Shown one piece after another: positions 253 through 58,390 of a stretch of DNA of 64,000 bases. Under the pieces are notes generated by a model. That model made no database searches and was not told the origin of the DNA. It saw nothing but the letters and a program-made list of their open reading frames with translations. Each line of letters starts with the position of its first letter. Position 1 is the stretch's first letter. The translations under genes and the position numbers were made by a program. Source of the DNA: Ilex aquifolium (taxonomy: Eukaryota; Streptophyta; Magnoliopsida; Aquifoliales; Aquifoliaceae); assembly GCA_951799425.1 (NCBI GenBank), contig OX637409.1, positions 15,603,460 to 15,667,459 on the forward strand. Direction: 5' to 3'.

Positions 253-366
253 AATGTTATATAGATCTAATTTAATGCAGTCATTGGATTAGTTGTCAAG
301 TCTAATGTTAGATAGAATAGGTCTCGCTTTTAATCCAATAACTGTAATTGATTAAGTTCATATTAG
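253..366. repeat. Small fold-back (MITE-like) element, family 1
   Basis: The left arm begins AATGTTATATAG and runs to ATTGGATT. The right arm is an imperfect inverted copy of about 33 bp, from AATCCAAT to about 366. The same arm sequences, in the same order, occur in the longer element at 45687-45976, so the two belong to one dispersed fold-back family. It is non-coding, and I could not define its target duplication. Confidence 0.45.
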
Positions 367-423
367 TTCTCCAAATTTGGTCAAAATAGCATTTGCGTCC
401 TTTATGCTTTTCTCCACTTTTTA

Positions 424-650
424 GAGTAAATATTCATTGTAAAGGTTACACAATGTCAGTATTATCACGTGGTGTAATTGTCCCATCATAGACAAACAAG
501 TGAGTAATGTAGACTCCACTTTTTTACACGGGTTGATTACTATCTTACATGAAAGAATAGGATCCACTTTGTCCACTTGTGTAATCATTGGATGGTTAAA
601 CCACGTGACAATACTGACGTAGTATAACCGTTATGATTAATATTTTCTCC
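424..650. repeat. Fold-back (MITE-like) element with ~60-bp inverted arms
   Basis: The segment at 424-485 (GAGTAAATATTCATTG ... TATTATCACGTGG) is matched as an inverted copy by 590-650 (CCACGTGACAATACTGAC ... AATATTTTCTCC), with scattered mismatches. About 105 bp lie between the arms. There is no coding content. The structure fits a non-autonomous DNA transposon; the superfamily is not clear. Confidence 0.55.
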
Positions 651-977
651 TTCTTTGTTGACCTGATATACTCTTCAAGCATCTCAACTTTTGGCAAATG
701 CATTAAAAGAATGAATTCTAAGTAATAGGCTAAAAAATGCAAAAATTCCCAAGATTGAAAGAAAAGATATGCAGTATTGGATTAAAGATAAAATGATAGG
801 GCATATACTCCATTTTGACAAACAAACATGTTCAAGAACGAGCACATATACAATAATGGGCTTGAAGTTAAGAGATAATTTGATAGCTCCTCTTCTACAT
901 ATCAACATTAGTTCTTATTGCCCACACTGCAATTAGTTATTTCTCTTGCTAGCAAACGTATCAAAAGGTACATGAGT
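651..977. other. Spacer between fold-back element and P450 relic
   Basis: AT-rich sequence with no recognisable gene, RNA or repeat. The open frames here are short and without family motifs. Confidence 0.5.
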
Positions 978-1378
978 TTACAGCTTCTTGATCAAAAGAT
1001 CTACTCCAAATTCTGGCTTTATAACCAATTAGGAGAGAGAGTGAAAGAGAAGTTGGACACAAGGGCAGCAATCAGGCTCTTGAGTTCAATCATGGCCAAG
1101 TTTTGCCCAACACAAATCCTTGGTCCGAACCCGAAAGGTAAGAACCTATGTGGAAGCTTGCATGCACCATTGACTCCGTTTGTGAACCTCTCAGGGTTAA
1201 AGGTCAAGGCGTCTAGTCCCTAGAATTCGGTTTCTGTGTGCATTGTCACCAGCATGGTCCAAAGGATGACACCCTTTGGTATTTTGTAACCTCCAATTGT
1301 CATGTCATTCAAGGTCTCCCTTGCCAATGCAGGACCTGAAGGGTAAATACGTAGCGTTTCTTCAAGAATCATTGTAAG
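978..1378 (-). pseudogene. Cytochrome P450, last-exon relic (CYP72-clan, CYP714-like)
   Basis: This is the final exon of a membrane-bound P450 mono-oxygenase. On the minus strand it opens after an intron acceptor (TTTTGCAG, AG at 1380-1379) and carries the K-helix ExxR motif (EETLRIYP), the PERF region (FNPERF) and the haem loop PFGFGPRICVGQ with the cysteine ligand. The layout resembles CYP714-type gibberellin or steroid oxidases, but the subfamily is a guess. Two lesions are visible. An in-frame TAG at 1222-1220 stands where the family has a tryptophan. A frameshift near 1020 separates the haem-side helix from the expected C-terminus, which is still readable in another frame as VIKPEFGVDLLIKKL followed by a stop at 980-978. 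No upstream exon was found toward 2.4 kb, so this is a truncated relic and not an active gene. Confidence 0.88.
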
Positions 1379-1651
1379 CTGCAAAACAAATCGATTTCTA
1401 CAGTTAGGTCATGTGTTTTCGAGACATTTTTGCACCATGATTACTCCATCTAGGATGGCTAACAAGTCATGTCATACCATGTTTTTATATTGTGTCGATT
1501 TGTTTATTTCATACATGATCCATGGGTAATCATAGTAGTGTCTTGTATGAGATATATTTTACATGATTCGTATTATGTTTAGTATAGTTCTTATTAACCT
1601 ATTTATCAAACGAGTTTGACTAATCAACTCGTTTGTGACTCGAATCCATTA

Positions 1652-1774
1652 AGAGCTAAACTAATATCCAACAACTCTTTCAATTTTGTGTTAGAGATAA
1701 ACTAATATCCAACAACTCTTTCAATTTTGTGTTAGAGCTAAACTAATATCCAACAACTCTTTCAGTTTTGTGTT
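1652..1774. repeat. Three tandem copies of a 41-bp unit
   Basis: Copies start at 1652, 1693 and 1734, giving an exact 41-bp period. The units begin AGAGCTAAACTAATATCC and differ by one or two bases. The array is non-coding and lies downstream of the P450 relic. Confidence 0.85.
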
Positions 1775-1877
1775 GGATCGGTTGATCATATTAAGGATTA
1801 TCATGATATAAAGAAATTTGATTGTGTATATTTTTTTTAATATGTCAATACGAAATACAACCTTTAAACAATAGAAT

Positions 1878-2390
1878 TAGGGGCGACAATTTATGACACT
1901 ACACGAAAACATGACTCGAAAACGATACGAAATTTACGGGTTAATGTTGACTATTTCTCAACACGAACATGCATATGATATGACTTATTAACACGAATAA
2001 TAAATGAGTTGAGTTAGTGTCTACCCAATTGACACGATTAACACATTTAAGTAGTATTATAAGAATAAAATATTAATTTTTTATTATATTTTATCAAGTA
2101 GTAACCCAATTCTTGTACAAAAAAAAATATTTTTACTCATTTTTATTATTATATTTATTAAGTTAGTTTTTAGTTTATAGAAAAAGTATGAGCATATATT
2201 CGATTAAGTGATAATGAAATTTTAGACATAAAACTGAGCGTTACATTTTTTATTCACAGATTATTTGGGTTAACACGAACACGACAAAAAATAAATAAAT
2301 TGACACGACTAGTAAAACAAATTGGGTTAGGGTTGATTAGTCCTCGACACGATCCTGAAATGACACGATATGATACAATTGCCACCCCTA
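1878..2390. mobile_element. Non-autonomous hAT-like DNA transposon (TAGGGG-TIR family)
   Basis: The left end reads TAGGGGCGACAATT and the right end AATTGCCACCCCTA, a short imperfect terminal inverted repeat. The flanks are AATAGAAT (1870-1877) and AATATAAT (2391-2398), an 8-bp target duplication with one mismatch, as expected for hAT insertions. The interior is non-coding and rich in ACACGA motifs, like the related copies at 3194, 35112, 40535 and 51788. Confidence 0.7.
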
Positions 2391-3185
2391 AATATAATAG
2401 CTATAATACAAACGAAGATAATTAGCACTTTTAATAATCTAGATAGTAGCTAATACTATAGGAAAATAATATTTGTGATAAAATAAGTTTAAAATAAAAT
2501 ATTTATATACACATATATATAATTTATATAAAGATAAAAGAAAAGGTGGCATGTGAGTCCTAAGAGGCATGTAATTCACTGTCTTGAAGTAGCCAAGCCT
2601 CCCTACGTGAAGGAACTGACGGACACTAGCAACTCCAAAATCCAATCTAAATGTTCACAACAACACCTCCTCCATGGTCACGTCCGCTAGTGGGAAGATG
2701 TGAATCTGACACTAATCCAGTTATCAAAAACAATAATAAAATAATACGAGATCTTGTAGGAATATAAGTAAAAACAGTAAGAGAATAAGCCAAAGGGGCA
2801 GTCGACAAAAGTCTTTTCTGGCGAATTGCTTTTGGGGAAAGAAAATCTTAATAACAACAAAAACTACCAAAGAACAAAGTCAGGAAATCAGTAGACTAGC
2901 AAATGACGTTTGGTACAGAGAGATTAGAAGTTGATGGTAGAATCTGATGATCAAGACTAGCTCTTCATAGCGCCTTTTATAGCCAATTGTTACTCCCTTA
3001 TTCGGTTGTCATGGCTATGTCATAGGGTTTCCTTGCCCAAAGGTGTCTCATGATTTAGCCAAATTGGGGTGTGCTTGGTGAAGCAATTCACAGTTGGCTT
3101 CCTAAGGAATTGGTTATATACTTGGTTTGGTGTTAATGGTAATCGATAAAAGCTCCAGCTAGTATCGACAACTATGCCCTGGGCT
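2391..3185. other. Intergenic, nothing recognised
   Basis: AT-rich DNA with no open frame showing family motifs and no clear repeat structure. It lies between two hAT-like elements. Confidence 0.5.
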
Positions 3186-11700: not shown

Positions 11701-12609
11701 TCTCTCTCTCTCTCTCTCTCGTGTATGACTATTTAAGTTTAGGTTTCTCACACCCCAATCATAAGTCACACACACTTGAGCAAATTACCGAGTTCTGATT
11801 TCCATTTTTCGAATCCAATCTCAAATAATCTGAAAATGTTTGGCTTCTCAGAAATGAAATCATCGGCCGCATCGATGATGTTAGTCCGATCAATGGCCAA
11901 CAAGATCATCCCCAATCCAGCCCGATCCTACATCCAATCAGCGATTCACTACATCTTCAGTCCTCTCTCCACTCGGCTCACTATTATCGTCGACGAGCAT
12001 TATGGAAGCACTCGTAATCAAGTCTACGAAGCCGCAGAGATATACCTCCGCACCAAAATCAGCCCCAACGCTGAGCGATTCAAAGTTCACAAAACTCCGA
12101 GACAGAAAAACCTCAACATCAGCATCGAGAAAAATGAAAAGATCGACGATACCTACCAGAACGTTCAGCTAAAATGGAGATTCGTCTCTGTTGAGCCTCA
12201 GGACCGGCATGCTGGACAAAAAAGATTCTTTGAGCTCACGTTTCACAAGAAATTCAAAGAAAAAGTGTAGACCGATTACTTACCCTTTGTTCTGGCTAAG
12301 TAAAAGGAGATAAAAGATAATGACAAGGAGGTGAAGCTCTATGCCATGAATTGTCTATACGATTATGATGAGGGTGAGGATGGTGGTGGAAGGGTTTGGG
12401 GTTCGGTCAATTTGGAGCATTCGTCGACGTTTGAGACTCTTGCGATGGATAAAGAGATGAAGAAGGTGATGATCAATGATTTAGAGAGATTTGTGAGGAG
12501 AAAAGAGTTTTACAAGAAGGTTGAGAGGGCTTGGAAGAGGGGGTACTTGTTGTATGGACCTCCTGGGACTGGGAAATCGAGCTTGATTGCGGCGATGGCG
12601 AATTATTTG

Positions 12610-12780
12610 GGTGTGGCTCCTCTACGGTAAGTGAGTTACCGTATATCATGCGGTTAAATGGAGCGACAACGTTTTGATGGCTTTTTGCAATTTTGTTTTT
12701 AAATCCTTACCAAAAACGTCATTTGGGTCATTGAAGTCAAAATCAAAAATCCCTTTCTCCCTCTTCTTCTTCGCCAAACT
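12610..12780. repeat. Left terminal inverted repeat of the MULE
   Basis: It starts GGTGTGGCTCCTCTACGGTA and pairs with the reverse complement of 17411-17590, with about 10-15% mismatches and small indels. The similarity fades after TTCTTCTTCG near 12775. Confidence 0.9.
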
Positions 12781-13399
12781 GTCGCTGCCTTCTCTCATAG
12801 TCTCACTCAAGCGCCTCATCTCTCTCTCTCTCTCTTCTCCTACATTCGGCGACTAACGACCTCCGCCTACCCTCCGCCAAGAAGATGATGTTGCCTTCTT
12901 TCCCTCTCTCACTGATCGCTGACCAGTGACCAGGTAACCCATATTGTACTCTCTCTCTGCCTTCTCTCTCTCTGTCTTTGCTCTTTTGCTAATCGTTGAC
13001 CAACAACATCAATAAATTCTAGTGATTGGTTTGTGCTACTATTTTTGGTTATTGATTTTGCGAAAATAGACCTAATTTCAGATTTTGTGGACTGAACTCA
13101 CTAATTTTAGATTTTGCGAAAATAGAACTAATTTCAAATTTGGTTAATTACTGGAGATTGGTTAATTAAAGGACTATGTATCAAAATTTTGTGGACTGAA
13201 CTCCCTGCAATTGGGTGTTTTTTTTTTTCATTTCTATCCTGTAATTTCTCAACAATCAGGAGGAACTGCGTTTTGTATTTTCCATTTGATATATAATGTG
13301 ATGTATTGTCAAAAATTGTTTTACGATCCAGATGTTTGGCAAATTTGAGGTTTTTGAATGCTTCTTTGCTAATTGCAGGGATTGTCTCTTTTTTGAATG

Positions 13400-13640
13400 C
13401 TTCTAATGGGCTGTGGAATGTAGAGTGAACATGAATGAATGGGCTGCTGCATTTTGCTATACCAGCACTGTAGTTTATACCATGAATGAATGAATGTAGA
13501 GTGAACATTTTGCTATACCAGCACTATAGTTTGGAGCACTGTTGCATTTTGCTATACCAACACTGTAGTTTGGAGCACTGTTGTAGTTTGTTATACCAGT
13601 AACATGAATGAATGGGTTGCAACTTATAATGTTGAATTTT
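13400..13640. repeat. Local repeats inside the MULE (ATGAATGAATG / TTTGCTATACCAGCACT)
   Basis: The phrase TTTTGCTATACCA(G/A)CACT(G/A)TAGTTT occurs three times at about 45-65-bp spacing, mixed with ATGAATGAATG(G) and TAGAGTGAACAT repeats. It is a decayed minisatellite in the transposase-distal part of the MULE. Confidence 0.6.
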
Positions 13641-13677
13641 GATTACCATTGTCCTTTCATGTTTGTAGTGTTGAAGA

Positions 13678-13898
13678 ATGGCATCTTCAAGCATGGCAAC
13701 AAGCAACGAAAAGTTAAGATATCGGAATATACAATGCACCAATTGTAAGAAGAAGATGTAATGACATTGAAGTTGAAGATTTAAGAACTTTGTAATATAG
13801 TTCAACGTGTTAAGGAAAAAGAAGGAGCAATGAAGTCATATATGTTTGTAGCCATGTTACTAGTGGTGATGCTTTTGTTTGTGATTCTAGTGAAGTAG
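13678..13898 (+). pseudogene. Small CxxC plus C-terminal hydrophobic ORF remnant in the MULE
   Basis: An ATG at 13678 opens a short frame reading NEKLRYRNIQCTNCKKKM before a stop. About 65 bp later an ATG at 13830 opens MKSYMFVAMLLVVMLLFVIL, a single predicted membrane segment, with its stop at 13896-13898. An N-terminal Cys-x-x-Cys motif followed by a short coiled-coil-like stretch and a hydrophobic tail resembles plant GRF-type zinc-finger proteins with a C-terminal anchor, which often occur in repeats. If so, the middle of the zinc finger is lost. The identification is tentative. Confidence 0.3.
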
Positions 13899-14008
13899 AG
13901 ATGTAAGAGTAATGGTGTATTGATGGAAGTTGTGTTGTGAATGAACTTGTGGGTTTAATTTGAATGAAATTGTGGGTTGTGTATAGCGTTGTGACTTGGA
14001 AAAAAGAT

Positions 14009-14085
14009 AATTTTCATCAAAAAAGATCACGTTCATACAAAAAGATCACGTTCATCAAAAAAGATCACGTTCATTAAAAAAATGG
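14009..14085. repeat. Tandem GATCACGTTCAT-AAAAAA repeat (~20-bp unit)
   Basis: Three close copies of AAAAAAGATCACGTTCAT(C/A/T) follow each other, flanked by decayed copies (ATAATTTTCATC, AATCACG). The array lies just downstream of the transposase 3' end. Confidence 0.75.
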
Positions 14086-14188
14086 CGCATAATCACAATC
14101 ACGCATCATGACCATGTTCATTAAAAATAGAAAATAAATGTTTTTCAACAAAATGATCCAACAAGCAACTAGTAGCCCCCAAGCATCT

Positions 14189-16690
14189 TTATAATTGCTG
14201 ATCCTCCAAGCATCCTTCCAAGTTGTATCCCCCATTCATGAAAAATGATTTAGCATCATTTAAAGAATGCATATGTGTTGAATCTGTCGGAGTACCCTAC
14301 ATTAATGAGAAGGGGTCAGACAAACAAATTTGATACATATGTGAAATAATAAAATTATTAATAAGGTAACATACCATAACACTTTGTAAACTATTTGAAG
14401 CTTGAGAAGACAATATATTCGAATGACCATATGCTGATGTACACGGGTGACTGAAACCATGTACCTAGAGTACAAAAATAGTTACAATTAAGTTTATAAA
14501 AATATGAAGTGAATAAAAATATGTCGAAGCTTGTGATAAGTACATTTATGTTTATAAAAATATGAAGTGAATAAAAAAAAACCTACAATTATATTTATAC
14601 GATACCTTAGACATATGTGATGGTTGTGAAGCTTCCTTTTGTCTCTTTGGTGCTTTCTTATGCCAAGATTTTAGTCGACCCCAATCCTTGTAATCTTCCT
14701 CTCTTTTTTTGAAACCTTTAACTTAGAGAAGGTTTGGGTTAACATTTTTTATTCCTTCTTCATGGTTTGAATCATCGCCACCATCACCAATTGATGAATA
14801 TATAATATCCACTTGTTTGAACAATTCCTCAACACCACGTGACACTAATTGATATGTAGGTTGAAGACCAGAGCCTCAAGCAGCTAGTTGTACCATTCTA
14901 TGACAAAGCTGCCTGTAACGTGACACCACCATTAACTTGGGATCCTCTTCATTTGACATGGTACTAGGGGCCTGAGTATAACTCTGTCTTTCAGCTCGTC
15001 TCCATCTCTTAAGTATGTATTGTTCGGGAATTTGCTTAATATTCATCATGTCCAAGACTTTAAGTGCATGGTCACATAATATGCCTTCCATTTCAAACTT
15101 CCAACAACTACAATTGACTATCTCCTCATTAGCCTTAACCAAGACCAAATACTCTCTATGCTATTCAAATAATTGAACCACAAATTGATGCCACTCATCC
15201 AACACATCACATGGTGTCGCAATAGCACACTAAAAGATATCATACTCATCTTGGAATAGCTCAAAAATAGTAGGAGTGTACACTTGTCCTGCTTGCACTA
15301 ACATTGGAGCTCTTTTTAATTTCAATCTAGGTAATTTTTGCCTAGCTTGGTATTCTGAGTCTGACACTTTATACCGCTTATCATTCACAACTCTTTCAAA
15401 ATGTACAAAGAACTGAACAATGTCATGGTCTGGCTTTAAGTACTTCCGTAAGGTTGCATTCAAGCTCCCACTCAGTTGGGTGTTTCTCATTCCTGCAGTG
15501 AAAGTCCTCTTCATATACACCTACCCCCATTTCTCTCGCAATGCCCAAGTGGATTTCATCCACATATTATCATGCAAATTATACTCCACAAGCAACGATT
15601 CCCAAGCCTCAGATAATTCATGCTCTTCCTCATATACATACACACACTTTTTAAATCGAGCAGAAAAATGTGAACCATCTTTATATATGTTCCCTAAATG
15701 TTTCAAAGCATTTTGGCAAAGGTGCCAACAACATAACCCATGGTATGTCTCTGGCATCACTAGAGAAATAGTCTTACCATCGCTTGATCTTGGTCGGTGA
15801 AGATGGTAATAAGATATTTTCCAGACATAGCTTGTAGGAATGTCTCAAACAACCACTAAAATGATGCTGCTGTTTCATCATACAATAATGCAGCTCCAAA
15901 TAAGACTGTCTCCCTGAAATGGTTGAAGCTAGTAAAACAAGCAAAAGGTCGATACTCCTTATTCATTCTAAAAGTAGTGTCAAATGAGACAACATCTCCA
16001 AAGTTGCCATAATCAATCATCACCCTTGGGTCCACCCAAAAAATATTAGTAATATGTTACTCTGCATCCAATTGCACCCCATAATAGAATGATGGATTTT
16101 TAACTGATTGCATTTGAAAATACTTCAACAAACTACCTGCCTCACCATACCTCAAGTCTCGTTGTCTCCTTTCACGGAGGTAATTCTTTTGGTCTTGACG
16201 AGTAAAACCTAGGTTTTCATTTCCTCCCGACTGAGTACTTAAAAGTTCATAGGAAACCTTAAGTGACATTCCACAATCCACTGCCATATCAATATTAATG
16301 TCTTGTGCTCCGGTAACCTTCCGTTGGAATGGCATCATATGCATACATTCAGCAAAGTGCAAATGATGGCTGTGGTTGTCATCCCATTTCACCACAACAA
16401 ATTTGTCAATTTCTCTATTAAGAGATATGCACATATGAGCTTGACAATTTGTTTGTGTCTCTGCTCGAGGTTTCCTTATTTGACACTCTCTGACCTTGTT
16501 TACAACAAACATATTTTTTGTAAATGACAATGCCATTTTTCAAACTTTAATTCTGAAAATCTTTTCTCACGCTAAATCCCACAGACCCTCCATAATTATT
16601 GTAAAACGCATAAGCATCTTCTTCAGTATCAAATTACATATCAATATGAGATCTATTCTCAGTCACATTAACTCCTAAATCATCCATCAT
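14189..16690 (-). pseudogene. FAR1/FHY3-type MULE transposase, broken
   Basis: The N-terminus starts near 16690 (MMDDLGVNV). Next is a FAR1 DNA-binding region (EEDAYAFYNNYGGSVGFSVR; further on CQAHM and KWDDNHSHHLHF). The MULE DDE domain follows, with SFDTTFRMN near 15980 and FTDQDQAM near 15790, CWHLCQNALKHLGN near 15720 and LKPDHDIVQFF near 15420. A SWIM zinc finger (CSCWKFEMEGILCDH) lies near 15090. A further C-terminal tail (about 14876-14615, then about 14467-14374 and 14298-14189 as apparent small exons with GT-AG borders) ends in NLEGCLEDQQL. Several in-frame stops (for example after GVQLDAE at about 16057) and frameshifts divide it. It is very similar in order and spacing to the host FAR1-related sequence family, which descends from such transposases. 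It is oriented opposite to the host ATPase gene. Confidence 0.9.
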
Positions 16691-16875
16691 AGTATCTTAC
16701 AATAAAACATTTAATTGAAATGACATTATGTGGTGAATGAAACACATAATATATGTATGACATTCAAAAAAAAACAAAAATCAAACTGAAACAATATTTA
16801 CCACAAAAATAGAAAATATTAATTGTTTGAAAATATTAATATTATTAACTCAACAAGGTCTTGAAACAAATGAGT

Positions 16876-17106
16876 AAATGGACGGCTGAAGTTTTTGATG
16901 TGGAGTTGATGAGATTTCAGAACATTGAAGAAGAGATGGTACAGATGCTGCAAATTGCCATGGCATGTGTTGCAAGGGTGCCAGACATGCGGCCCAGCAT
17001 GGACGAAGTTGTTAGAATGGTCGAAGAAGTCCGACAATTTGACTCAAAAAACCGGCCATCTTCTGAAGAGAACAAATCCAAGGACTCAAATGTGCAGACC
17101 CCATGA
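16876..17106 (+). pseudogene. Captured C-terminus of an LRR receptor-like kinase (At5g58300 type)
   Basis: The frame reads [20 protein letters not shown], then [20 protein letters not shown], and ends SKDSNVQTP with a stop at 17104-17106. This is the end of kinase subdomain XI plus the short tail of plant inactive LRR receptor kinases of the At5g58300/At3g08680 group. No other part of the receptor is present, and the match begins abruptly at the tryptophan codon. Another frame-like stretch upstream (LKQMSK) is not receptor sequence. The piece lies between the MULE transposase start and the right TIR, on the opposite strand. Its frame has no stops, so capture may be fairly recent or the frame may be under selection. 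Confidence 0.88.
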
Positions 17107-17410
17107 TTTTCTGGGAACTCATATTTTTTTTTAATTTCAAGTTTTCCAGCAGTATGTTCTGAAAAATTCATCTGATTCAAGACCCAATTGAATGCCTCCA
17201 TACACACATGCACATATTGGGAAGCTATATAATCATAAAATATCTCTATTAATTTCATAATGAAACATACACATATGAAATCTGGTTTTAATACCGTACC
17301 ATCATTTGATGAAGAGGTCTGACTTTTGGCGTTCACTGCATTTAACGAATAAGAAGAGGGAGAATGAGTTGAGAAGAAGGCGGGAGAAACAGTCATCAAA
17401 CTGTAACCTA

Positions 17411-17590
17411 GTTTGACGAAGAAGAATCGGGAGAAAGAAAATGGATTTCTGATTTTGATTTCAAAGATCCAAACGACGTCGTTTTTGGTAAGGATTTAAA
17501 AAAAAAATTGCAAAAAGCCATCAAAACGTTGCCGTTCCACTTAATCGCATGATATGCGGAAACCCACTTACCGTAGAGGAGCCACACCCA
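17411..17590. repeat. Right terminal inverted repeat of the MULE
   Basis: Inverted copy of 12610-12780. It ends CCGTAGAGGAGCCACACCCA directly before the second AATTATTTG copy. Three to four extra bases and a longer T tract account for its greater length. Confidence 0.9.
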
Positions 17591-18148
17591 AATTATTTGA
17601 AGTTTGATATATATGATTTAGAGCTTACGAGTTTGTACTCGAACTCGGAATTGAGGAGCATTTTGGTGTCCACTACGAATCGGTCGATCATTGTGATCGA
17701 GGACATCGATTGCAGTGCTGAGATGCAATAGCGGCAGTTGGGGAATGACTCTTCCAACACCAAGGTTAGTTTTTAAGGTTTTTGTTTTTTCAGAATAATT
17801 TTGTGCCGTTTCCAAATTATGTCATGCCCAAAATTATTTCCTTGTCTAATTTCTAATTGTTTACCACGGGCTCTATCTTGTAAACTATGTTTTGTCCAAT
17901 CGAGTTATTTAAAAATATTTATGAAGTGTAAGGGGTTTAGTATCCAAATCGACTAATTCTACACATTGAATCTAGAATGTTAGACCTAAATTCTTCTTAA
18001 TGCAGTTGACACTGTCCAGGCTATTGAACTTCATAGATGGATTGTGGTTGAGCTGTGGAGGTGAAAAGATCATTGTTTTCACAACCAACCATAAGGATCG
18101 CCTTGATCCTGCTCTGCTTCAACCTGGTCGAATGGACATGCACACATA

Positions 18149-18716: not shown

Positions 18717-19211
18717 CGGTACCTACTGTTGTGTTCTAGAGAATGAAATTCGTAGAGAAGAAGGGGTGAAGCAACTCGCCATTGAAGATCTGAACGAATA
18801 TTGTCTTACCTTCGTAAAATCGTAGTTCATTCGACTGTTCGAGTGAATGAGCCAGCCACATCGTAGAGAGAGAGAGAGATGACTGAATCGGAGTGAGAGA
18901 CTGAGGGTCATCAAACCTCAGACTCCAACGATAAGGCAGAGAGGAGAGCAAGAGGTAGAGGCTCAGCTGCTCAGAACGACAAAGATCAAATAAGGGCAAA
19001 AATACCCAAAAGCCTGATTTTATAACATTTTACTTGATCCGGCGGGTTTGACAAAAATTGTCCGGTTCAACGGGTTAGGGGAAGAACCGTCCGGTTTAAC
19101 GGGTTTTATCCGGTCTTTTTACATAAACAATCTAATATGAGAACCGACCCAGTTTAAGCTCCGGTTCTCTGGTTCACCGGATCAACCCGTCGAACCGGGT
19201 CGGATTTTAAA
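18149..19211. mobile_element. Non-autonomous DNA element in the ATPase C-terminal exon
   Basis: The insertion separates GRMDMH from MSYCTTQGF of the ATPase. Its ends are inverted and CG-rich: left AGTTTTAAAACCCGGCCCGG, right CCGGGTCGGATTTTAAAAT. TTTTAAAA stands at both junctions (18150-18157 and 19205-19212). It is palindromic, so it may be terminal sequence or a duplication, and the exact borders are open. Both ends are made of CCGGTT/AACCGG phrases. The core holds two diverged direct copies of about 170 bp (18500-18670 and 18700-18850), each led by a GAGAGA tract. It has no ORF. Confidence 0.7.
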
Positions 19212-19739
19212 ATGTCTTACTGTACAACTCAAGGATTTAGGCTCTTAGCTGCGAATTACCTCGGCCTAGGCGATCACCATAGGCTCTTTGGTGAGATCGA
19301 AGGCTTAATTGAGAATGTACAGGCGACCCCTGCAGAAATTGCTGAGGAGCTAATGAAGAGCGACGATGCTGACATAGCTCTTGGTGAAGTAGTTAAATTC
19401 CTAAAGCGAAAGAAAAGTGAAGCCAATAACATCAAGGAGGAAAAGAATCTGGCGCTTGAAGCCCATGATATCAAGGAAGAAAAAACTAGTGGAGCTGAAA
19501 AGGAGGCCAAAAGGATGAAAACTGGGAAAATTGCTAATAGAACCGTAAGAAACTGTATGAAAAGATCCACTAGAGGAAGAAGACATCGGCTGCTGTGAAC
19601 AAGAAAATGTAAGCGCTGTATATATATTGATGAGTTGTAGAACGACTTTTAAGGCAGACTCAAAGCGATTTATTCATTGTGGCATGGGCTAAACCTTTCT
19701 GAATGTCGATTCGAGCTAGAGCTAAAACAAAATTATAAT

Positions 19740-22780: not shown

Positions 22781-25700
22781 TTAATTTCTCTTCCTTTTTC
22801 TTGTCTTCTTTCCCAATGGAGCTTGCTGTAAATCAAGGAAGACCTCCGGGGACACTACTGGCTTCCCTCTACGCAATGAGAGCGGTTGATTGCCAAAGTA
22901 GTACACAAGTGTGTCTCCATATGCCGATGCATGTCTAAGGTTGACGTCACTACTAGATTGTGCATCCTTGTCTTCCTGCTCGTCGTACACAAGATGGACT
23001 CCAACCTCCTTTACCTTTACATTACCCATTGAAATTGAAACACTCAGTTTATCACCAGGTTCAAACTGAAACCTAAGCTTCCAATGACTTATCCACATCA
23101 TATGTTCATCTGGTTCTGGAACTCCGCAAAATGTTGGCATATAGATCACCTTATTCTTGGTCTCATTACTGATTTCAGTTTTAATTACCACTTTGCCCGA
23201 AAAATTTTCTTCATGGATGGCATAAACACAACACATGTTCAGCTTGTGAATCGTGAGATTAAGAGCTGAAGGGACTGTAAAAGATATTGAGGATCCTGCT
23301 TTTCTATTGTCGAAATAGTCTGGAACTTTGCTTGCAGGAAGAAATATGCTGAATATTCCATCTTCGGACAGCCCCTATGCCATGAAAATTATAATTTCAA
23401 TTTTCAACTTTCACAATTGCACCCAAGTAGTTGGAAGGAGGGGGGGGGGAGAGAGAGAGAGAGCACCTGGATGGGGAGTTTGCTTGTCGTTGATGTTAAC
23501 TGATTGAACAATTCCACCTTAGTGCTTCTGAGGGATTCTATGTTGGACAACTGCAAATTATTGATAACTGCTGCACTAATGTTTGATACACGTTCTAACT
23601 TGAAATGCCCTTGCATCTCCACTAGATTCTTGCATTTATTTAAGTCGAACCACGGTTCAGAGGCCAAAGATGATGCATATTCTATTTTTTCCAATGATGG
23701 GCAATCGCTCGTAAATAAGTAGTATTTTATATGGGGTAGCCCTGTGAGTGTTTGCAGCTTTGAACATGAATCTACACGGAGCGCGTCGAGACTAGTAAGA
23801 CTTCTGACACAATCTGGTAGGCTATGGATTGGATTTTCGCTTAGATGTAGCACCTTCAACAAGGGTAGGCTCCGAAAATCCTCAGGAAAATCACCATCAG
23901 ATAGGTTGCATCCTTGAAGACTTAATGTCACTAAAGAATGTGGCAAAATTGCCTTTGCTAATTCTGGATGCCTTCTTGGTTTAGATCTCCCAAACCACAT
24001 GAATGAAAGCCAAGAAGTATTCTGTGTGGTAATAGAGGGTAATAGGCTTAGGTTGACTCCATCGGCATAGAGCACTTTAAGTTCTTTCATCTCTCTTAGC
24101 TCTGACGGCAACTCTTCAAGATTTGAGCAACCAGAAATATTTAATGTTTTGAGTGATTGTAGCATGCCTATGTTTCTTGGAAGCTTCTTTAAATTTTTGC
24201 AATCTTTCAGATTGAGGAAAACAAGTCTCCCAAGATATCCGATTGATCCATCAACCTCAACCAATTTTACACAATCTTTTAGGATCAATCTCTCAAGATT
24301 AGGGAGCCATGAGAAATCAGGGGTGGTTGTAAGGGCATGGCAGTGTCTGAGGTCAAGGATCTTTAATAACCTAAGAACCTGTAAAAGAAGGGAAAACAAG
24401 TGGGGAAGCTTATGTTAGAGACATGAAAACCTAGAAACCCTAAAAATAGAAGGTAAAAAGAGGAGGGCAAAGGTGGACCAGTACCATACCTTGGATTCCT
24501 TCCATACCTGTTCTAAGCTGCCATTGCGCATATCAATGGCAACCACCTTCTCCAATGGAAAATCACTTGGTACAAATTTCAAAGGAAACCCGTGCCAACA
24601 CAACCATCTCAAGTTCTTTGGAAACTCTTTGTAGCCTCCAATAAGTCGTACATAATTAATTTGTAGGAGTCTTAATTTGTGCATCATTGTGAATGCATCG
24701 GTTTCCAAGTTGGCCTCATATGAATTGTTAATGTTGAAGATTCTCATGCAGTGCTTATCTTCCTCAAGCATATTCATATTGAGAGCAAGGCCTTCGATTA
24801 TATTTGTGCCCTAATAGAAAAACATCGGAGGGATAATGACAAGATAACAGATAATAACAATCACGTATGTACACTTAAAAAGGTAATTTCCTTACAGATT
24901 TTTCTTTCAACACTTTAAAGGAATCTTTATAATGCCACAATCTTCGACGCTTGCCAAGATCCTTAGTTGACTGCCGAATAATTTCTCTTCCCATCTGCTG
25001 AATCAATTTATGCATCATCTATTGTTAGGAGACATCTATCCATAAGATTTTGAACCCCTACGGTTGTAAAGAAACCACATTCATCTAGTATAGTAACTAC
25101 ATAAGCCTTGTCCATTCCAACAAAGAAACAGGCAATCTCAAGGAACAAATCTCTGTCGTGGTCATCTTCTAAACACCCATAGCTTATTTCAAGTTTATCT
25201 TGGATTTTGCTGTCATGAATTGCTTCGAATTTCTTTAATGCACTTCTCCATACGTCCACACTTCTATCGCGCAGAGCAGAACCTAAAACTTGAAGAGCCA
25301 AAGGAAGCCCTTTGCAATGTTGTACAACCTGTTTTGAGTACTCCAAGTAACCTTCAATGGGATGGCCTTGCCCAAAAGCATGCCAACTAAAGAGCCTAAG
25401 GGATTCATAATCATCCATTGCCTCAACATTATATATCTTAACTTCGTACGGCTTCAACAACTGCATGTTCGTGGTTGTTATTATGATTCTACTTCCTGGA
25501 AAAAACCAATTTCGTATTCTAAGAAATGTGTATAGTTGATCTTTTTCATGAACATCATCTAAAACAAGAAGAACTCTATGGGATAATACGACATCTCTTA
25601 TCTCAATGATCCCTTCATGAACACTGTTTATTTTTTTCTTTTTGCCTTTTCGAATATCTGAAAGAAGTTTTCTTTGTAACCGAATCAAACCATTAGGCTG

Positions 25701-28071
25701 TTTGGAGATTTCTCCAATATTCGCAAGAAAACTGCGACCTTCAAATCTATTAATGTTCAAATCAAAAACGTGTCGGGCGATGGTTGTTTTCCCTATCCCG
25801 CTCATCCCACATATTACGAGAATGCCGACATCAGTTAACCCATTTTGCAACCACAAATTAATGTCTTCGACTCGAGAATCGATTCCAATTAGGTGTGGTG
25901 CGACAATTGGGACTTTGCAATTCACTTTATCCTCAATAACTTTCACAATTTGCTTGATGAACTTTGACTCATACCTACACTTTGGGATGAATTGAACAAT
26001 TGATCAAAACATGATTGTCAAAAAATAGAAATAAATGAAACTATATTGTACTGCAAACAAGTAACTAAGATTTCATCTATTGAAGAATGTATTGATATAA
26101 GTTGAAAGAATTCAATGTTTATGAACTTGACACTAAATGTATAAGAAAGACAACAATTCAAAAGAGAAACTTTCAACTTGTAGTTTCATACCATTTACCT
26201 TGCTTTTGTCTCATATTCTTTGTGTGCCTTATTAAGATGCATTATTGCGCATTCTTCAGATTCCTACTTAATTCGGCTATTTTTGCATTTTTAGTCTAGC
26301 TTTATTTGGGGTAAGAATTTTAAGGGTGTCGTTTCTAAAAAGTGGTCTATGTCAAATGAGACACCTTGAAAAGTGATCTACTTCATTAATGACACAACTC
26401 TAATCAATCATATTGTCAATCTAAATCAAATTGAAAGGGTTGCAGCCACTTTGTTTAGTTTGACAAGATTACTAAACAATTGCAAATATATTATTAGATG
26501 GAATTTTTTCTTTCCTATATTTTGACTTGGGAAATGATTATTGTGTGCTAAAGATGCTATATTCTAAAAATTTCTTGATAAGTTTCCATATAATTCAAAA
26601 TGATTGGCGCACACAACACAACACGGGATAATATGAGATATATACTTGGTTTAATAGTCATTCTTTCTCATGTGAGTTCTTTCTATGAATATAAAGAAAT
26701 ATTAAAAAATTGCTATCCCCAAGCTCACAAAAATAACTGTCCAGTCAACAAATCCCAAAAATGAGTATTCCACAGGCATTTACCTGTTAATCCACAGATG
26801 CCATTTTTATCTGCTTATTTTGGGATATAATGCAAGTACTACTTATAAATTGCTGGGATATTATTGGTGCTTGTTGCATACCTTATATTTGCTTCTTGAT
26901 CATGTAAATTTGGTAGCAATAGATTTCATGATGCAGCTGGTCTGTTAGAAGCTAAAAAGGCAATAGTAGCGACAAAGAGTCACAGACACAATCTTGAAAA
27001 TTTTCATCAAGTTGATTGGAAACGCCGACATCTTCACGATCCATCGTTTTACCAATGTTATTTAGCTTTTAGTCAAATTCCTCCAGGTAGGCTTTCAAAT
27101 TTGTAATCTTTGATTTTGAATTAAAAGTCCGAGTTGATCACCATTGCTTATTCATTGCTTCTATTCTTTAGGATTATTCTTTCTGATTTCATTTGATTTT
27201 GCTATTTTTAGTATGTTTTATTTTCTCTAGATGTCATTTTCTACAAGATTTTATGTTCAGTCCATTATAAATAGAAAGTTGTAAGCTACAGGGCAAGACA
27301 TCTTATTGCTAGTAATATTATCAGAATTTTTCTCTTGAATTAGTTTTCCTAGTGGTTTCTAGGTTGATAATTGTTGTCTAATCACTTCTGCTTCACTACT
27401 TATTTTTTTATGTGACGCCAGGTTGTTTGAATATGCCTCTTCTTGTTTTGCACATACAATTCTGTTTGTCATCTCTTCGTGAAACATTTCCAAAATTTTC
27501 AAAATAAAGGAAAATGATGTGTAAGAAAAGAATTTGCAGGCAATTACCCATTAGCTTCATTTCTTAAGACCATCCCTTCGAGTTCTGCAACTTCTTTAAG
27601 TGCTTCTCTCCATTCTTTGACCTTATCCATCCATTCCTGCTTCTCTTTATCGTACCTTTCTTCCTCAATTCTCTTCTGGTATCTGGCAAATGCTTCTGCA
27701 AAACTTCCTGTTTGTTCCCTAAATTGGGAAGGATCTACATCATAGAAGACGGGTAGAACAAAATGGCTCGAGGTCCTCTTATGATTGAGGATCATGAGCA
27801 GTTCATCAAGGCACCATGTGGAAGCTGCACAGTCCTTTGAGAAGACGATTATTGAACTCCTTGACTGTTGGATTGCTTTTTGGAGTTCTGAACTAATGTT
27901 TTCTCCTTTCTCTATTTGGTCTTTGTCGCTAAACGTGCGAAAACATGCATTCTCCAAAGCTGTGTAGAGGTGGTCGGTAAAGGTCTTGCGGGTGTCTTTA
28001 CCTCTGAAACTCAAGAACACATGATATGCACATGGAGGCATAGAAGAGAAGACTGATTGGGTTCCTGCCAT
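22781..28071 (-). CDS. TIR-NB-ARC-LRR-C-JID disease-resistance gene (TNL), one frameshift
   Basis: This is an intracellular immune receptor. The five exons, all with GT-AG borders, are 28071-27548, 25974-24896, 24810-24490, 24378-23467 and 23374-22781, about 1,140 residues. Exon 1 is the TIR domain (YHVFLSFRGKDTRKTFTDHL). The putative NADase glutamate is E90 in STWCLDEL. Exon 2 is the NB-ARC: P-loop GMSGIGKTT (~231), RNBS-A FEGRSFLANIGE, kinase-2 LLVLDDV (~310), RNBS-B GSRIIITTTN, GLPLAL (~398) and RNBS-D FLEIACFFVG. Exon 3 is the NB-LRR linker with the first repeat. Exon 4 holds about 8-10 LRRs (LKILDLRHC, LKTLNISGCSNLEELP, LKVLHLSENPIHSLP). Exon 5 is the C-JID domain seen in RPP1/ROQ1-type receptors, with basic KKTRKRKRN at the end. 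Phases fit at all junctions except for a shift at about 25010-25020, between CLLTI and MMHKLIQQMGREIIR, where a stop (TAA, 25008-25010) interrupts frame 1. The MHD motif reads MHK. It may be a recent pseudogene or an assembly error, since everything else is intact. Confidence 0.93.
25975..27547 (-). other. Long first intron of the TNL gene
   Basis: The donor is GG|GTAATT at 27547-27546 and the acceptor is TGTAG at 25975. Joining restores phase (ANG to YESKF). At 1.57 kb it is much longer than the other introns (80-110 bp). I saw no gene or clear transposon ends in it; it is AT-rich. Confidence 0.8.
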
Positions 28072-28601
28072 CGAACAAACCCGTCGGTTGATATCAAATC
28101 AGTCCTTGCTGGAGTCTCCCACTGGAAAGCTCAGTGGAGTGCTAGCTAGATCATACGAGCAAACAGCTAATGACCTGTGTTCTGGGCTTGGTGGAATAAT
28201 CTTGCAAGCTTCTTGTATGCGAGACTCTCTCTCTCTTCCTAGTGCTAGCTACACTTTCTTGTTTTTCCACCTTTGTCAGCTAGTCTGGTGTGACTTTTTG
28301 ACCACCAGGGGTCCATTGTTCAAGTTTATCAGTAATTTAACCCATCATCTTCTCTAGAAAACAAATATGTCAGAGTTAGACTGCTTTATATTAGTATATA
28401 GGAAGAATATCAGACTATATAAATGCTTATTAAAGAGCAAATCTTAGCATGAACAGTAGTTTGTAAGTGGTAGGGTTAATACGTGTGATTTGATACAAAA
28501 GTGAATGCCTGTTGCTCATCTTTCTACTCAGTAGTGAGAGTACTAGTCATCTCCTTTTGCACTATTCTGTTGCCTTATGTAAGTCTGTGTGTGTGTTTAT
28601 G
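28072..28601. other. Upstream region of the TNL gene
   Basis: Presumed promoter and 5' untranslated region of the minus-strand TNL. No convincing TATA box or repeat could be fixed. The open frame at 28088-28357 on the plus strand has no family motif and overlaps this flank, so I do not call it a gene. Confidence 0.35.
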
Positions 28602-52991: not shown

Positions 52992-54536
52992 ATGGTCTCA
53001 ACTCGCAACATGAGTAGAACCCAAGCCAACCCGCTACGGATGTAAAATCAACAGGAAGCCACTAGTGGCCAATAGCACGAGAATCCTCAAGATTTCATCC
53101 TCGCTGCCGAGGCTAATCCACCTCTGGCGGATCCCCCAACGAATAACGAGATGGAGGCCCTTCGCCTGGCCAATCAATGTCTATTTTGACAGAACGAGGA
53201 GCTCCTAAAGCTTTTACAACGTCTGCAGGAGACACGACCAGCCCAAGAAGGCCAGAACGACCTCCCTCTAAGGGAGCCACATCATCTTGATCCCCTGAGA
53301 GAAATTAACGAAGGAGGGAAAAATAGTCAGGCTATAGGACACCTTCCCTATCTACCCCCTAGGAATGGCAATCATGAAGAAGTGAAAAGTCAGAATGATG
53401 GGGTCGAAAGAAATGATTTCTTCCCTTATCAGCAGGAAAGGAGATAGCAGTACTGGGAGCAGCGCTTCAAGGATATCCAACAAGAGCTCAGCCACATGAA
53501 GGAGACTATAAGGGGTAGAACCCCTGTAACCATGGACACCTTGGTGCAGCAAACCGAGTCTCAATTCACTACTGGGGTGTTGGATTTCCCCCTTCCACCG
53601 AAATTCAGAATGCCACAGGTGGAAGCTTTTGATGGGACGAAAGACTCCATGGACCACCTCAATACTTATAAGAACCAGATGGAGTTGCACCAGTATCAAG
53701 ATCCAATGCGTTGTCGCACCTTTGCCATCACACTGAAGGGGTCAGCCTTAGCATGGTTCAAGAGGCTCCCCCCAGCCTCGATCTCCTCCTTTAAGGAGCT
53801 CTCTATTTATTTTGTGTCTCATTTCATAGGAGCTCGGACCTACAGAAAACCGAGTTACCACCTGTTGAATGTGAAACAAGGCTCCCAGGAAAACCTGAGG
53901 TCTTATGTCCAAAGGTTCAACTCAGAATCACTAAAGGTGGATGTCCCAGACGAGAAGTTTGCTATTACTGCTTTCATAGCCGGCTTAGGAGTGCAGTCAA
54001 ATGACTTGATGTTCTCCATATCGAAGAATCCTCAAGCAAGCATGGCAGAGGTGCTGGCTAAAGCAAAAAAATATATAAACGGCGAGGAAGCTCTCCTCTC
54101 TAAGGTAGGGAGCTCAACCTCACAAAGGGATAAAGTGAAAGAAGAAAAGAAGAGAGATCGAAGTCTTAGGAAAGAAAGAAGACAAGATAGGTCTCCAAGA
54201 AGAGACAGGGACCGCTCCCCCAAAAGGAGGGGAAATGTCAGAGATAGCTTAGGTTCTCTACAGCCAGAGCTGCAGCCGAGGTACGCACCTCGGCAGATCC
54301 CTCCCCTCACAGCCACAACATCCCAAATCCTCTATGAGGTGCATAATGAGAAGTTCCTGAGATGGTCACCTCGGATGAAGGCGGATCCAGCAAAAAGAGA
54401 TCCCACCAAATACTGTGAATACCACATGGATCATGGCCACCACACTGACGATTGCATCCAACTAAAGAAGGAGATCGAATTCCTGATCCAACGAGGACAG
54501 CTGAGGCATTACGTAGTCAATGACAACCAAAACTGA
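52992..54536 (+). pseudogene. Tat gag polyprotein (broken N-terminus)
   Basis: The likely start is the ATG at 52992. The first 165 codons carry stops at about 53042, 53079, 53187 and 53446. From 53496 the frame is open for 346 residues. The capsid-like retrotransposon gag domain reads KFRMPQVEAFDGTKDSMDHL, then FAITLKGSALAWFKRLPPAS, LLNVKQGSQENLRSYVQRFN and FIAGL. A basic, arginine/serine-rich linker (KKRDRSLRKERRQDRSPRR) follows, then a CxxHx..HxxDxC knuckle (CEYHMDHGHHTDDC). It ends at a TGA (54534-54536) that is in frame with the following protease region. Confidence 0.9.
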
Positions 54537-55115
54537 GCTCAGCCACCTCCAGCACCTCAGCAACAAGCACTTGCGCTACATCAGCAACCTTTGGGGGAGA
54601 TCAGAGTAATATCTGGAGGATTCGCAGGAGGAAGGGAGTCCAGCTCAGCCAGAAAGGCTCACCTGCGAAGAATCAGAGGTGGCGAAGCACTGGAGGTGCT
54701 CACGGTGTCCAAAACACCTCGGCTGAGCACAACCATCACTTTCTCAGAATCAGATTTGGAAGGCTGCCATCATCCCCATGATGATCCATTGGTGGTGAGG
54801 GCTGTTGTTGCCAACATAACTATGCATCGAGTTCTAGTTGACAATGGGAGCTCTACAGACATCATTTTCGCCTCTGCATTTGACAAAATGGGCATAGGCA
54901 GGGAAAAGCTCGAGCCAGTAAGTGCTCACTTGTTGGGATTCTCCGGGGAAATGGTGTTACCCCTAGGATCAATCCAGCTCGTACTCACAATGGGAGATCC
55001 TCCCTGTCAAACCACCACTACCATGAAATTCTTGATAGTTGATGCGCCATCGGCGTACAATATGTTACTTGGGAGACCTTCCCTCAATGCAATGAGAGCT
55101 ATACCTTCAACATGA
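54537..55115 (+). pseudogene. Tat aspartic protease
   Basis: The frame is the same as gag after the TGA. It contains VISGGFAGG, SESDLEGCHHPHDDPLVV, the active site VDNGSSTDIIFASAF (DNGSS, an Asn variant usual in this lineage) and YNMLLGRPSLNAMRAI. It stops at 55113-55115. The link to RT is damaged: GATGACCTCGACATGAGGGA occurs twice (about 55119 and 55160) with a short AT insert, and the frame changes. Confidence 0.85.
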
Positions 55116-55170
55116 GGGATGACCTCGACATGAGGGATGAGTATAAAATATATAGTTAGATGACCTCGAC

Positions 55171-56590
55171 ATGAGGGATGAGTTGGACACTAGACCCATG
55201 CCGTCAGAAGAACTAGAGCCAATACAGCTTGATGAAGAGCCGGAACACCTAGTTTACGTGGGATCTAAGCTGATCAGAGAGATTAAAGACCTCCTCATCC
55301 AGTTCCTGAAAAAGAACAGGGGAGTGTTTGCCTGGAAACAGGAGGATATGGAAGGTATAAACCCCTCAGTCATTACACACAAGCTTAGTGTGAATCCCAC
55401 CTGCAAACCTGTTAAACAGAAGCGGAGAAGCTTTGCCCCAGAACGAAAAAAGGTAATAAATGAAGAGGTCAGCAAACTTCTTCATGCGAAGGCCATCAAG
55501 GAGGTAGATTACCCTACTTGGTTAGCAAATGTGGTTCTTGTCAAAAAGACCAATGGCAAGTGGTGACTCTGCATCGACTTTACCGACCTTAATAGAGCTT
55601 GCCCTAAGGATAGTTTCCCTTTACCTCAGATTGATCTGATCGTAGATGCCACCGCTGGACACGAGCTCCTCAGCTTTATGGACGCCTTCTCAGGCTACAA
55701 CCAGATCAGGATGGACCCTAATGACCAAGAGAAGACCTCCTTTGTGACTGAGTAGGGAACATATTGCTATCAGGTCATGCCTTTTGGGTTGAAGAATGTC
55801 GGGGCCACTTACCAGCGCCTGGTGAATCGAATGTTCCAAAAGAAAATTGGGACGTCCATGAAGGTCTACATCGATGATATGTTGTTAAAATCACTAAAGG
55901 CAGAGCTCCACATACAGCACCTTGCAGAGTCTTTCCAGGTCCTTAAGGAGTACAAGATGAAACTTAATCCAGCCAAATGTGCTTTCGAGGTATCTGCAGG
56001 AAAGTTTCTGGGCTTCATAGTCAACAGCAGAGGGATTGAGGCAAACCCAGAGAAGGTCAAGGCAGTACTGGATATGCAGCCACCATCTAATACAAGGGAG
56101 ATCCAACGCCTGATAGGAAGAATAGTTGTCTTGAGTCGTTTTGTGTCCAGATCAAGCGACAAATGTCAACCATTCTTTCAGGTCTTAAAGAAGGCGTTCC
56201 AATGGGATACCCGGTGTGAAGAAGCATTCAAAGCTCTGAAGGATTACCTGAGCTCCCCCCTGTCCTGGTAAGCCCTTTGGAAGGGGAGGTACTCACTCTC
56301 TACCTAGCTATCTCAGACTTCTCGACTAGCGTAGCACTAATAAGAGAACGAGACAGAGCTCAGCAACCAGTCTATTACTGTAGCAGAGCTCTGAGGGGGG
56401 CAGAAGAGAGATATCCAAAAATGGAGAAGCTTGTTTTAGCTCTGGTTACAACTGCTAGGAGACTTAGGCCCTACTTCCAGGCTCATACTATCGAGGTTCC
56501 AACAGATCAGCCGATGAAGCAAGTACTGCATAAACCAGAGTCTTCGGGGAGGCTGGTTAAGTGGGCCATAGAGCTCAGTTCGACATCCGG
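55171..56590 (+). pseudogene. Tat reverse transcriptase and first RNase H
   Basis: RT begins with KNRGVFAWKQEDMEGI and goes through IKEVDYPTWLANVVLVKK, CIDFTDLNRACPKDSFPLPQ, FMDAFSGYNQI, VMPFGLKN and VYIDDMLLKS (the YIDD box, usual YVDD), GKFLGF and IQRLIGRI. Stops replace an expected Arg codon at 55563-55565 and a Gln codon at about 55753. A one-base loss in a C run near 56260 shifts the frame. The RNase H then reads LYLAISDFSTSVALIRE, YYCSRAL and YPKMEKLVLALV. Confidence 0.9.
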
Positions 56591-56599
56591 TACAAGCCA

Positions 56600-57090
56600 A
56601 GAACTGCAATTAAAGGGCAGATTTTGGCAGATTTCATCGCAGAATTCACGACAGCTACACCCATGGAGGCCACACAGCTAGTACCTGACCTCCCCACATG
56701 GAAGCTTTCAGTAGATGGAGCGGACAATGCTTAGGGAAGCGGTGCAAGTTTAATTCTGACTTCTCCAGAGGGGATAGATGTCGAATACGCCCTCAGGTTT
56801 GGGTTTAAGACTTCGAACAATGAGGCAGAATATGAAGCTGTCATTGTTGGACTCAACCTTGCTCACTCAATGGAGGCAGAGCAGTTAGAGATTTGCAGTG
56901 ATTCCCAGCTCGGAGTGAATCAGATAGAGGAGTCTTACGAGGCCAAGGGAGAGAGAATGATCCTTTACCTTAGAAAGGTACAGGAGTTTATAAAAAAGTT
57001 TGTGTAAGTGAAGATCAGACACGTTCCTAGATCAGAGAATTCGTGGGCAGACACATTAGCAAGGCTAGCAACTACTTCGCAGGAAAACTT
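56600..57090 (+). pseudogene. Second, archaeal-type RNase H (aRNH) of the Tat element
   Basis: After a frame change near 56580 the frame reads FDIRYKPRTAIKGQILADFI, WKLSVDGADNA (stop at about 56731), GSGASLILTSPEG, FKTSNNEAEYEAVIVGLNLA, LEICSDSQLGVNQI and HVPRSENSWADTLARLA. These hold the D, E, D, D positions of RNase H. A second RNase H between RT-RNase H and integrase is the mark of the Tat lineage. A further stop follows KKFV at about 57005. Confidence 0.88.
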
Positions 57091-57299
57091 GGATAGACTA
57101 ATACCAGTGGAACATCTTGCAAAGCCATCAGTGAGTACTGAGGAAGAGGAAGTGCTCCCTATTTTGGCCCTGCCAAGTTGGATGGACCCCATCATGGGGT
57201 ACCTACAAAACGGAACCTTACCAGAAGACCCCAAGGAAGCTGCAAAGCTAAGAACCAGGTCAGCCAGGTTTTCTATCTCGTAGGGTAACTTATACAAAT

Positions 57300-58390
57300 G
57301 GCATTTTTCAACACCTCTCCTTAAATGCGTGGGAGATGAAGGCGCTAACTACATACTTAGAGAAGTCCATGAGGGGATCTACGACAATCATATCGAAGCT
57401 CGGGCTTTGGCAGGAAAAGCGTTGAGACAAGGGTATTACTGGCCCACTATGCTAAAGGATGCCTCTGATCTGGTTAAAAAATGCAAGATCTGCCAGGAGC
57501 ACGCCAACATCCCTCATTGTCCACTCGAGCTATTAACCTCGGTGGTAAGCCCTTGACCGTTTCAGCAATGGGGTTTGGACATACTTGGACCCCTTCCCAC
57601 CGGTACGGGACAGTGCAAGTTTGCCATTATAGGGGTAGACTACTTCACCAAATGGGCAGAGGTAAAACCTTTGGCAACAATCACTAAACAGAAGGTTCAA
57701 AACATCGCTTGGAAGTCAATAATTTGCAGGTTTGGAGTTCCCAGGGCTATCGTATCTGACAATGAAAAGCAGTTTGACAACCCAAAGTTTAAGAAATTCT
57801 GTGTTGAGCTAGGGATAAAGAACTATTTTTCAGCTCCGCCTCATCCTCAATGTAATGGACAAGCAGAGGTCACCATTAGGACCATAAAGGCAGCCCTGAA
57901 GACCAAGCTGGAAGATCTGAAAGGTAAATGGGTGGAATACATCCCAGAAGTACTATGGGCTTACAGAACAACTGTCAGGTCTACAACTCAAAAGACGTCG
58001 TTTGCTTTGGCTTTCGGAGCTGAAGCAGTGGCGCCTGTTGAGGTTGGACTCCCATCCCCCAGGATTGAATTCGCAAGTACCGAACACAATGATGAATCAC
58101 TTCTGCTGAGCCTGGACTTCTTGGATGAAAAGAGAGATAGAGCTCTATATCTTATTAAGAGCTACTAGAGGAAGATAACAAGATACTATGACAAGAAGGT
58201 TAGACACGGGAGTTTTAAGGTAGGAGATCTGGTGCTTAAAAAGCTCCTACTCGCGAGAAAGGACCCCACTCATGCAAAGCTGGGGCCTAATTGGGAGGGC
58301 CCCTTCATCATTCAAGGGTAATCAGACCTGGAAACTACGAGTTACAAACAGATGAGGGGAAAATCTTACCTCACTCTTGGAATGCAGAGC
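57300..58390 (+). pseudogene. Tat integrase
   Basis: It starts with the HHCC zinc-binding part (REVHEGIYDNH ... GYYWPTMLKD ... CKICQEHANI). The core follows with catalytic D in GLDILGPLPTG, D in AIVSDNEKQFDNPKF and E in QCNGQAEVTIRTIKAALK. The tail has VLWAYRTT, ALAFGAEAV and, after a stop at 58168, RYYDKKVRHGSFKVGDLVLK and LGPNWEGPFII. Frame stops occur at about 57556 and 58168, and a frame change near 58320 affects the last part. There is no chromodomain, as expected for Tat. Confidence 0.9.

Follow-up and report, generated by a model that had tools for sequence, protein, structure and literature searches.

A decayed MULE in the holly genome that carries a transposase relic and the 3′ end of an LRR receptor-kinase gene

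Results and Discussion

A MULE lies within an AAA-ATPase pseudogene

The window, by which we mean the whole 64,000-nucleotide stretch of Ilex aquifolium DNA analyzed here (C19:15603460-15667459), contains a MULE of 4,981 bp (12609-17589) that sits within a copy of an AAA-ATPase gene. The 5′ part of this host gene (11743..12608, plus strand) encodes AAA_assoc and AAA P-loop domains recognised by Pfam, and its exon continues beyond the element (17599..17731, plus strand) to an in-frame stop that has no counterpart in two relatives on C20. Joining the flanks across the MULE gives the empty site ANYLKFDIYDLELTSL and an uninterrupted ANYLKFDIYDLE reading, and at the insertion site the uninterrupted C20 relative reads GCGAATTATTTGAAG. 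All genome searches covered an 800-Mb assembly of 103 contigs. With the 5′ part of the host gene as query, 14 matches were found, and the best of these besides the window itself, C20:23499914 (91%) and C20:23354383 (79%), are both uninterrupted where the MULE has inserted. A preliminary description of this DNA had placed the element in an AAA-ATPase gene; the insertion holds, as the flanks rejoin in frame, but we rejected an intact gene, since the host copy is a pseudogene with three in-frame stops, none of them in either C20 relative (two, at 12268-12270 and 12301-12303, lie in the 5′ part). Upstream of the P-loop, the 91% relative itself carries a one-base frame change. The host gene may have been broken before the insertion or by it. 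A 146-codon frame (19158-19598, plus strand), about 1 kb from the rest, could, judged by eye, be the C-terminal portion of this AAA-ATPase gene.

Borders of the element

End-to-end alignment and a count of 22-mers delimit a left TIR of 172 bp (12609..12780, plus strand) and a right TIR of 180 bp (17410..17589, minus strand), close to the ~175 bp first estimated and inside the ~100-500 bp of the MULE superfamily. The two are ~87% identical (180 alignment columns; local score 242, against a maximum of 31 in 200 shuffles). Allowing at most 3 mismatches, we found the terminal 22-mer at just two places in the window, inverted relative to each other (12609-12630 and 17568-17589), and in 0 of 100 shuffles.

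Symmetry of the TIRs starts from GGG, at 12609 and at 17589. We placed the target-site duplication (TSD) directly outside these bases, as GAATTATTT (12600..12608) and AAATTATTT (17590..17598), a 9-bp pair with one mismatch, because flush duplications adjoin the GGG end in other family copies; the uninterrupted C20 relative was part of the same basis. The preliminary description had instead taken as duplication the 9-mer AATTATTTG, which is present as a perfect pair at 12601-12609 and 17591-17599. This pair is real, but its placement is one base off relative to the TIR symmetry and the flush TSDs elsewhere, and we rejected it as the TSD. Searching the genome with the left end as query yielded at least 41 matches (40 of 110 candidates scored), two of which are the window element's own ends; 28 of the other 39 start at 12608 or 12609 (query base 8 or 9).

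Ten other family copies were inspected at both ends, those of L011, L012 and L027 being partly hand-placed. Four copies (L009, L013, L014 and L054; L013 has GAG, not GGG, at one side) are flanked by exact 9-bp duplications that directly adjoin the GGG end, L028 by a 10-bp duplication, and L011 by a 9-bp pair in which one base is mismatched. In L027 there is an 8-10-bp repeat, its right end being degraded and set by hand, and no duplication was found within 12 bases of the ends of L010, L012 or L015/16. The 9-bp and 10-bp duplications, like the imperfect pair in the window, lie in the 8-11 bp range of the MULE superfamily.

The element retains a FAR1-MULE-SWIM transposase relic

The minus strand of the element carries the relic of a FAR1-MULE-SWIM transposase (14600..16690, its 3′ limit approximate), as seen from reading frames and from Pfam on separate pieces. 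The likely start codon is at 16690-16688, with the next stop 18 codons on, and the coding sequence is interrupted by eight in-frame stops (near 16636, 16059, 15858, 15523, 15232, 15163, 14878 and 14725) and changes frame at least twice (near 16550 and 15777). Four of the five minus-strand pieces between 16539 and 14876 that we submitted to Pfam found a match. FAR1 scored under its cut-off (24.8 bits against 28.1; E 3.6e-5) and covered profile positions 46-89 of 90, the first half of the profile seemingly lying in another frame. The MULE domain (PF10551) was matched over its cut-off by a 66-aa piece (27.9 bits against 27.6; E 3.2e-6), and the end of the same profile matched the next piece under the cut-off (18.1 bits; E 0.0038). 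A C-terminal SWIM domain, as in Jittery-type MULEs, scored over its cut-off (24.4 bits against 19.6; E 2.1e-5), and the piece at 15230-15520 had no Pfam match. That the MULE has a transposase of its own was thus confirmed, in the form of a relic.

We compared seven of the window stops, leaving out the start-proximal one, with 18 family loci wherever these could be aligned, some of the loci being parts of one copy. They are common to 0/15, 1/13, 0/12, 1/11, 0/11, 0/12 and 2/12 alignable copies, so that four are private to the window copy, two occur in one other copy and one occurs in two. Several resemble, by eye, changes caused by cytosine deamination. Since its stops are mostly private, the transposase frame of the window copy was most likely in a better state on arrival than it is now, as judged from this comparison of sequences. 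No source of transposase without stops was found among the 18 loci, each of which has at least one in the compared codons; no intact source was therefore seen, and transposition in trans is equally compatible with these data.

The element holds the 3′ end of a receptor-kinase gene from C4

The interval from the right TIR to the transposase start contains a 328-bp segment (16877..17204, plus strand, opposite to the transposase) that corresponds to the 3′ end of an LRR receptor-kinase gene elsewhere in the genome. A search of the whole assembly with 16790-17330 returned 37 matches from 23 candidates, all of them scored, and the parent gene at C4:6332121-6332447 is 95% identical across exactly 16877-17204. 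The next best-scoring gene match reaches 78% over 232 bp, and shorter matches reach up to 82%. At the parent locus, a 467-codon open stretch matches LRRNT_2, LRR and the kinase N-lobe, and a 215-codon stretch matches the rest of the kinase. The receptor-kinase tail had been described as captured rather than native to the MULE, and the C4 gene bears this out.

The segment consists of a kinase C-terminus of 75 codons and a stop (16879..17106), open in the window copy, followed by 98 bp of the parent's 3′ UTR (17107..17204), as delimited by alignment with the parent. The preliminary description had spoken of an open 77-codon fragment; the frame is indeed open, but its parental part amounts to the 75 codons and stop. 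Pfam recognised no kinase domain in the 85-aa kinase-like piece, and the kinship therefore rests on the parent gene and on a sequence search of the PDB, in which the piece matched the C-termini of the BIK1, BAK1 and BRI1 kinases (7 sequences, E 1e-4 to 4.2e-3).

Three carriers share both junctions

Two further MULE copies carry the piece, at C5:8554010-8554569 (91%) and C2:14161817-14162257 (93%), and the junctions are identical in all three carriers. Both hold the same piece rather than a full-length kinase. The window copy is alone among the three in being nearly complete, with transposase and fragment together: the C5 carrier has lost the transposase region corresponding to 14888-16155, and the C2 carrier is interrupted, with no match beyond 15469 in the stretch fetched. 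At least five places in the family (L018, L019, L024, L053 and L054) have both MULE flanks without the kinase piece; an alignment of L018, L019 and L024 with both carriers and parent puts the flanks 22-49 bp apart in these three.

At the left junction, MULE and parent overlap by 2 bp (AA, 16877-16878), and at the right junction by 6 bp (CATACA, 17199-17204). Among 200,000 random junctions, overlaps of at least 6 bp had a frequency of 0.002 and those of at least 2 bp a frequency of 0.17; therefore, only the right overlap is unusual and the left one is at chance level. Together, the overlaps fit repair by template switching. An origin of the kinase piece as a transposon inserted separately, or as native sequence of the MULE family, is extremely unlikely, and we rejected it: no TIR or TSD was seen at the edges of the piece, where there are only MULE flanks, these flanks lie close together in the fragment-less places, and the parent gene is on C4. 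We found no support for this explanation.

The fragment has diverged at the pace of the MULE body

Over 327 columns, the three pieces differ from the parent at 14 (window), 18 (C5) and 21 (C2) sites and from each other at 18, 21 and 24, a divergence among carriers of 5.5-7.3%. Six sites set the three pieces apart from the parent with the same base in each; these could be changes that preceded the spread of the piece, or changes in the parent. For the MULE body, we compared window positions 16155-16876 in the carriers and in 14 fragment-less copies (L017 was dropped, its match being shorter than 450 bases). The carriers are mutually nearest, at 6.5-6.8%, and 6.9-11.3% away from the fragment-less copies, so that fragment and body are similarly diverged. 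On the best tree, the carriers fall on one side of a branch with a support of 67/91.7 (not starred). The window copy's end branch in the body tree measures 0.037, which at a substitution rate of 7e-9 per site per year would correspond very roughly to 5 million years.

A probable single capture followed by spread and decay

We consider it highly probable that the element is a dead MULE that formerly encoded a transposase and probably belonged to the Jittery/FAR1 type, and that its lineage captured the piece once from the C4 kinase gene, then spread and then decayed. The events could have begun with a break or a stalled copy between the right TIR and the transposase start. During its repair, the template would have switched to the 3′ end of the C4 LRR receptor-kinase gene and back, guided by the 2 and 6 bp of shared sequence, and some 320 bp of kinase sequence would have taken the place of roughly 20-50 bp of MULE filler. 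This recombinant element may then have transposed to give at least three copies (on C19, C5 and C2), one of them in the AAA-ATPase gene, the element itself, rather than a relative, perhaps supplying the transposase. The transposase would have decayed afterwards, mostly through the stops private to the window copy. Against this account stand the weakly supported carrier clade and star-like tree, the mismatch in the right TSD, the chance-level left overlap, the transposase loss in the C5 carrier and interruption of the C2 carrier, and the stops present in all 18 loci compared.

Captures of the same piece two or three times independently, or its spread between copies by gene conversion, would also give several carriers, and the body tree, with one starred fork of 14, leaves room for either, as does the finding that the carrier bodies are almost as far apart as copies of a burst. 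Independent events would nevertheless have had to produce the same two junctions three times, and the six sites common to the pieces against the parent (subject to possible parental changes) also argue for a shared history, as does the single change of state that explains fragment presence on the best tree. We therefore regard repeated capture or conversion as improbable, and a single capture followed by spread as well supported but not proven.

A further question is whether the captured piece has a function, either as antisense or small RNA against the parent kinase, made by transcription from the right TIR, or as a 75-codon peptide. Antisense to the transposase, the piece is placed in the interval from the right TIR to the transposase start, and TIR promoters are known from MuDR (PMC3310237); judging from position and orientation, a transcript from the right TIR would contain antisense kinase RNA. 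Identity to the parent extends to 66 of 308 21-mers, with a longest identical run of 55 bp, and the frame is open in the window copy. Against this, the 75-codon frame has one stop in the C5 copy, where the alignment of carriers and parent also shows an insertion of ~21 bases, and two in the C2 copy; between window and parent it differs by six synonymous and five non-synonymous changes, without stops; and the orientation may be due to chance. Substitutions, stops in two of three copies and divergence at the rate of the MULE body gave no sign of selection or function on this frame, and we rejected selection on it given the stops in the C5 and C2 copies and a fragment divergence close to that of the body. 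A function of the piece is thus very unlikely. It is likewise highly doubtful that the antisense kinase 3′ end formed part of the transposase leader, with the result that transcribing the transposase yielded antisense RNA to a host receptor kinase as well; if true, this would have linked transposon activity to host signalling while the MULE family was active.

Relation to known gene-capturing elements

With TIRs, a TSD and a host gene piece between the TIRs (its parent being on C4), the element resembles Pack-MULEs and other Pack-TYPE elements. It differs in keeping a near-complete transposase relic, whereas Pack-MULEs, in two surveys, are non-autonomous by definition and free of transposase sequence, and transposase-bearing elements are classed as autonomous or removed before captured genes are counted (PMC4858842, PMC8903248). 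Since such surveys set transposase-bearing elements apart, their rarity is partly definitional, and the earlier remark that Pack-MULEs usually lack transposase holds with this qualification. In the order FAR1 (a match under its cut-off), MULE and SWIM on one strand, the holly element is like the Jittery-type MULEs (group 36, with FAR1 at the N-terminus and SWIM at the C-terminus; PMC6446971), and its TIR lengths are within their 39-292 bp; the TSD given there is 8 bp or not indicated, whereas it is 9 bp here, and the likeness is one of domains and TIR length.

Transposase together with a transduplicated gene piece has already been described in grapevine, where one study (PMC2528002) reports Jittery-like MULEs that carry ULP sequence on the downstream side of the transposase, a CACTA family that contains coding and 3′ UTR sequence from a PPR gene, oriented opposite to the transposase, and a Mutator family with cellulose-synthase pieces (transposase status not stated in the passage). 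The captured genes are others, and ULP and PPR lie downstream of the transposase, whereas the kinase piece lies upstream. For animal Pack-TIRs, a further study (PMC8277862) reports that 67.6% of cases have microhomology (1-36 bp, median 2 bp) at one or more breakpoints and proposes gap filling or fork switching, multicopy cases being tied to fork switching followed by transposition. The holly element shares with them a small replaced gap, internal breakpoints, microhomology and several copies after capture, and differs in being a plant element whose carrier keeps a transposase relic. By analogy with these Pack-TIRs, the junction picture is that expected from template switching in gap repair. 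The known picture of gene-piece capture is unchanged by this element, which is an unusually clear case of a known kind, with parent, both junctions, carriers and fragment-less relatives in one assembly. Screens that set aside transposase-bearing elements before searching for captured genes miss such cases.

Further observations on the family and the window

We also screened 14 family copies or partial copies, that of the window included, for further captured sequence, some of their ends being guessed. Segments of at least 120 bp without a match in the other 13 were present in every copy except that of the window (some at guessed ends). L010 (C1:51990100-51993500; element 283-3133) has a 2.4-kb interior without counterpart in the other copies examined, with an open frame resembling RNase H by eye. 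The C5 carrier, L009 (C5:8551200-8558000), has a 2.2-kb stretch inside one TIR that none of the other examined copies share, and its transposase core has been cleanly deleted. The longest listed stop-free stretch inside the window element (192 codons, 16917-17495, minus strand) extends from the right TIR across the captured piece, in antisense to it, and is probably due to chance. The plant-like gene content of the window comprises TIR-NBS-LRR-like, LRR receptor-kinase and FAR1-like frames. Frames of a TIR-NBS-LRR-like resistance gene, with TIR, NB-ARC-like and LRR stretches by eye, lie at 22781-28098 (minus strand), and frames like those of a Gypsy-type retrotransposon (gag, protease/RT and integrase-like, by eye) lie at 53448-58168.
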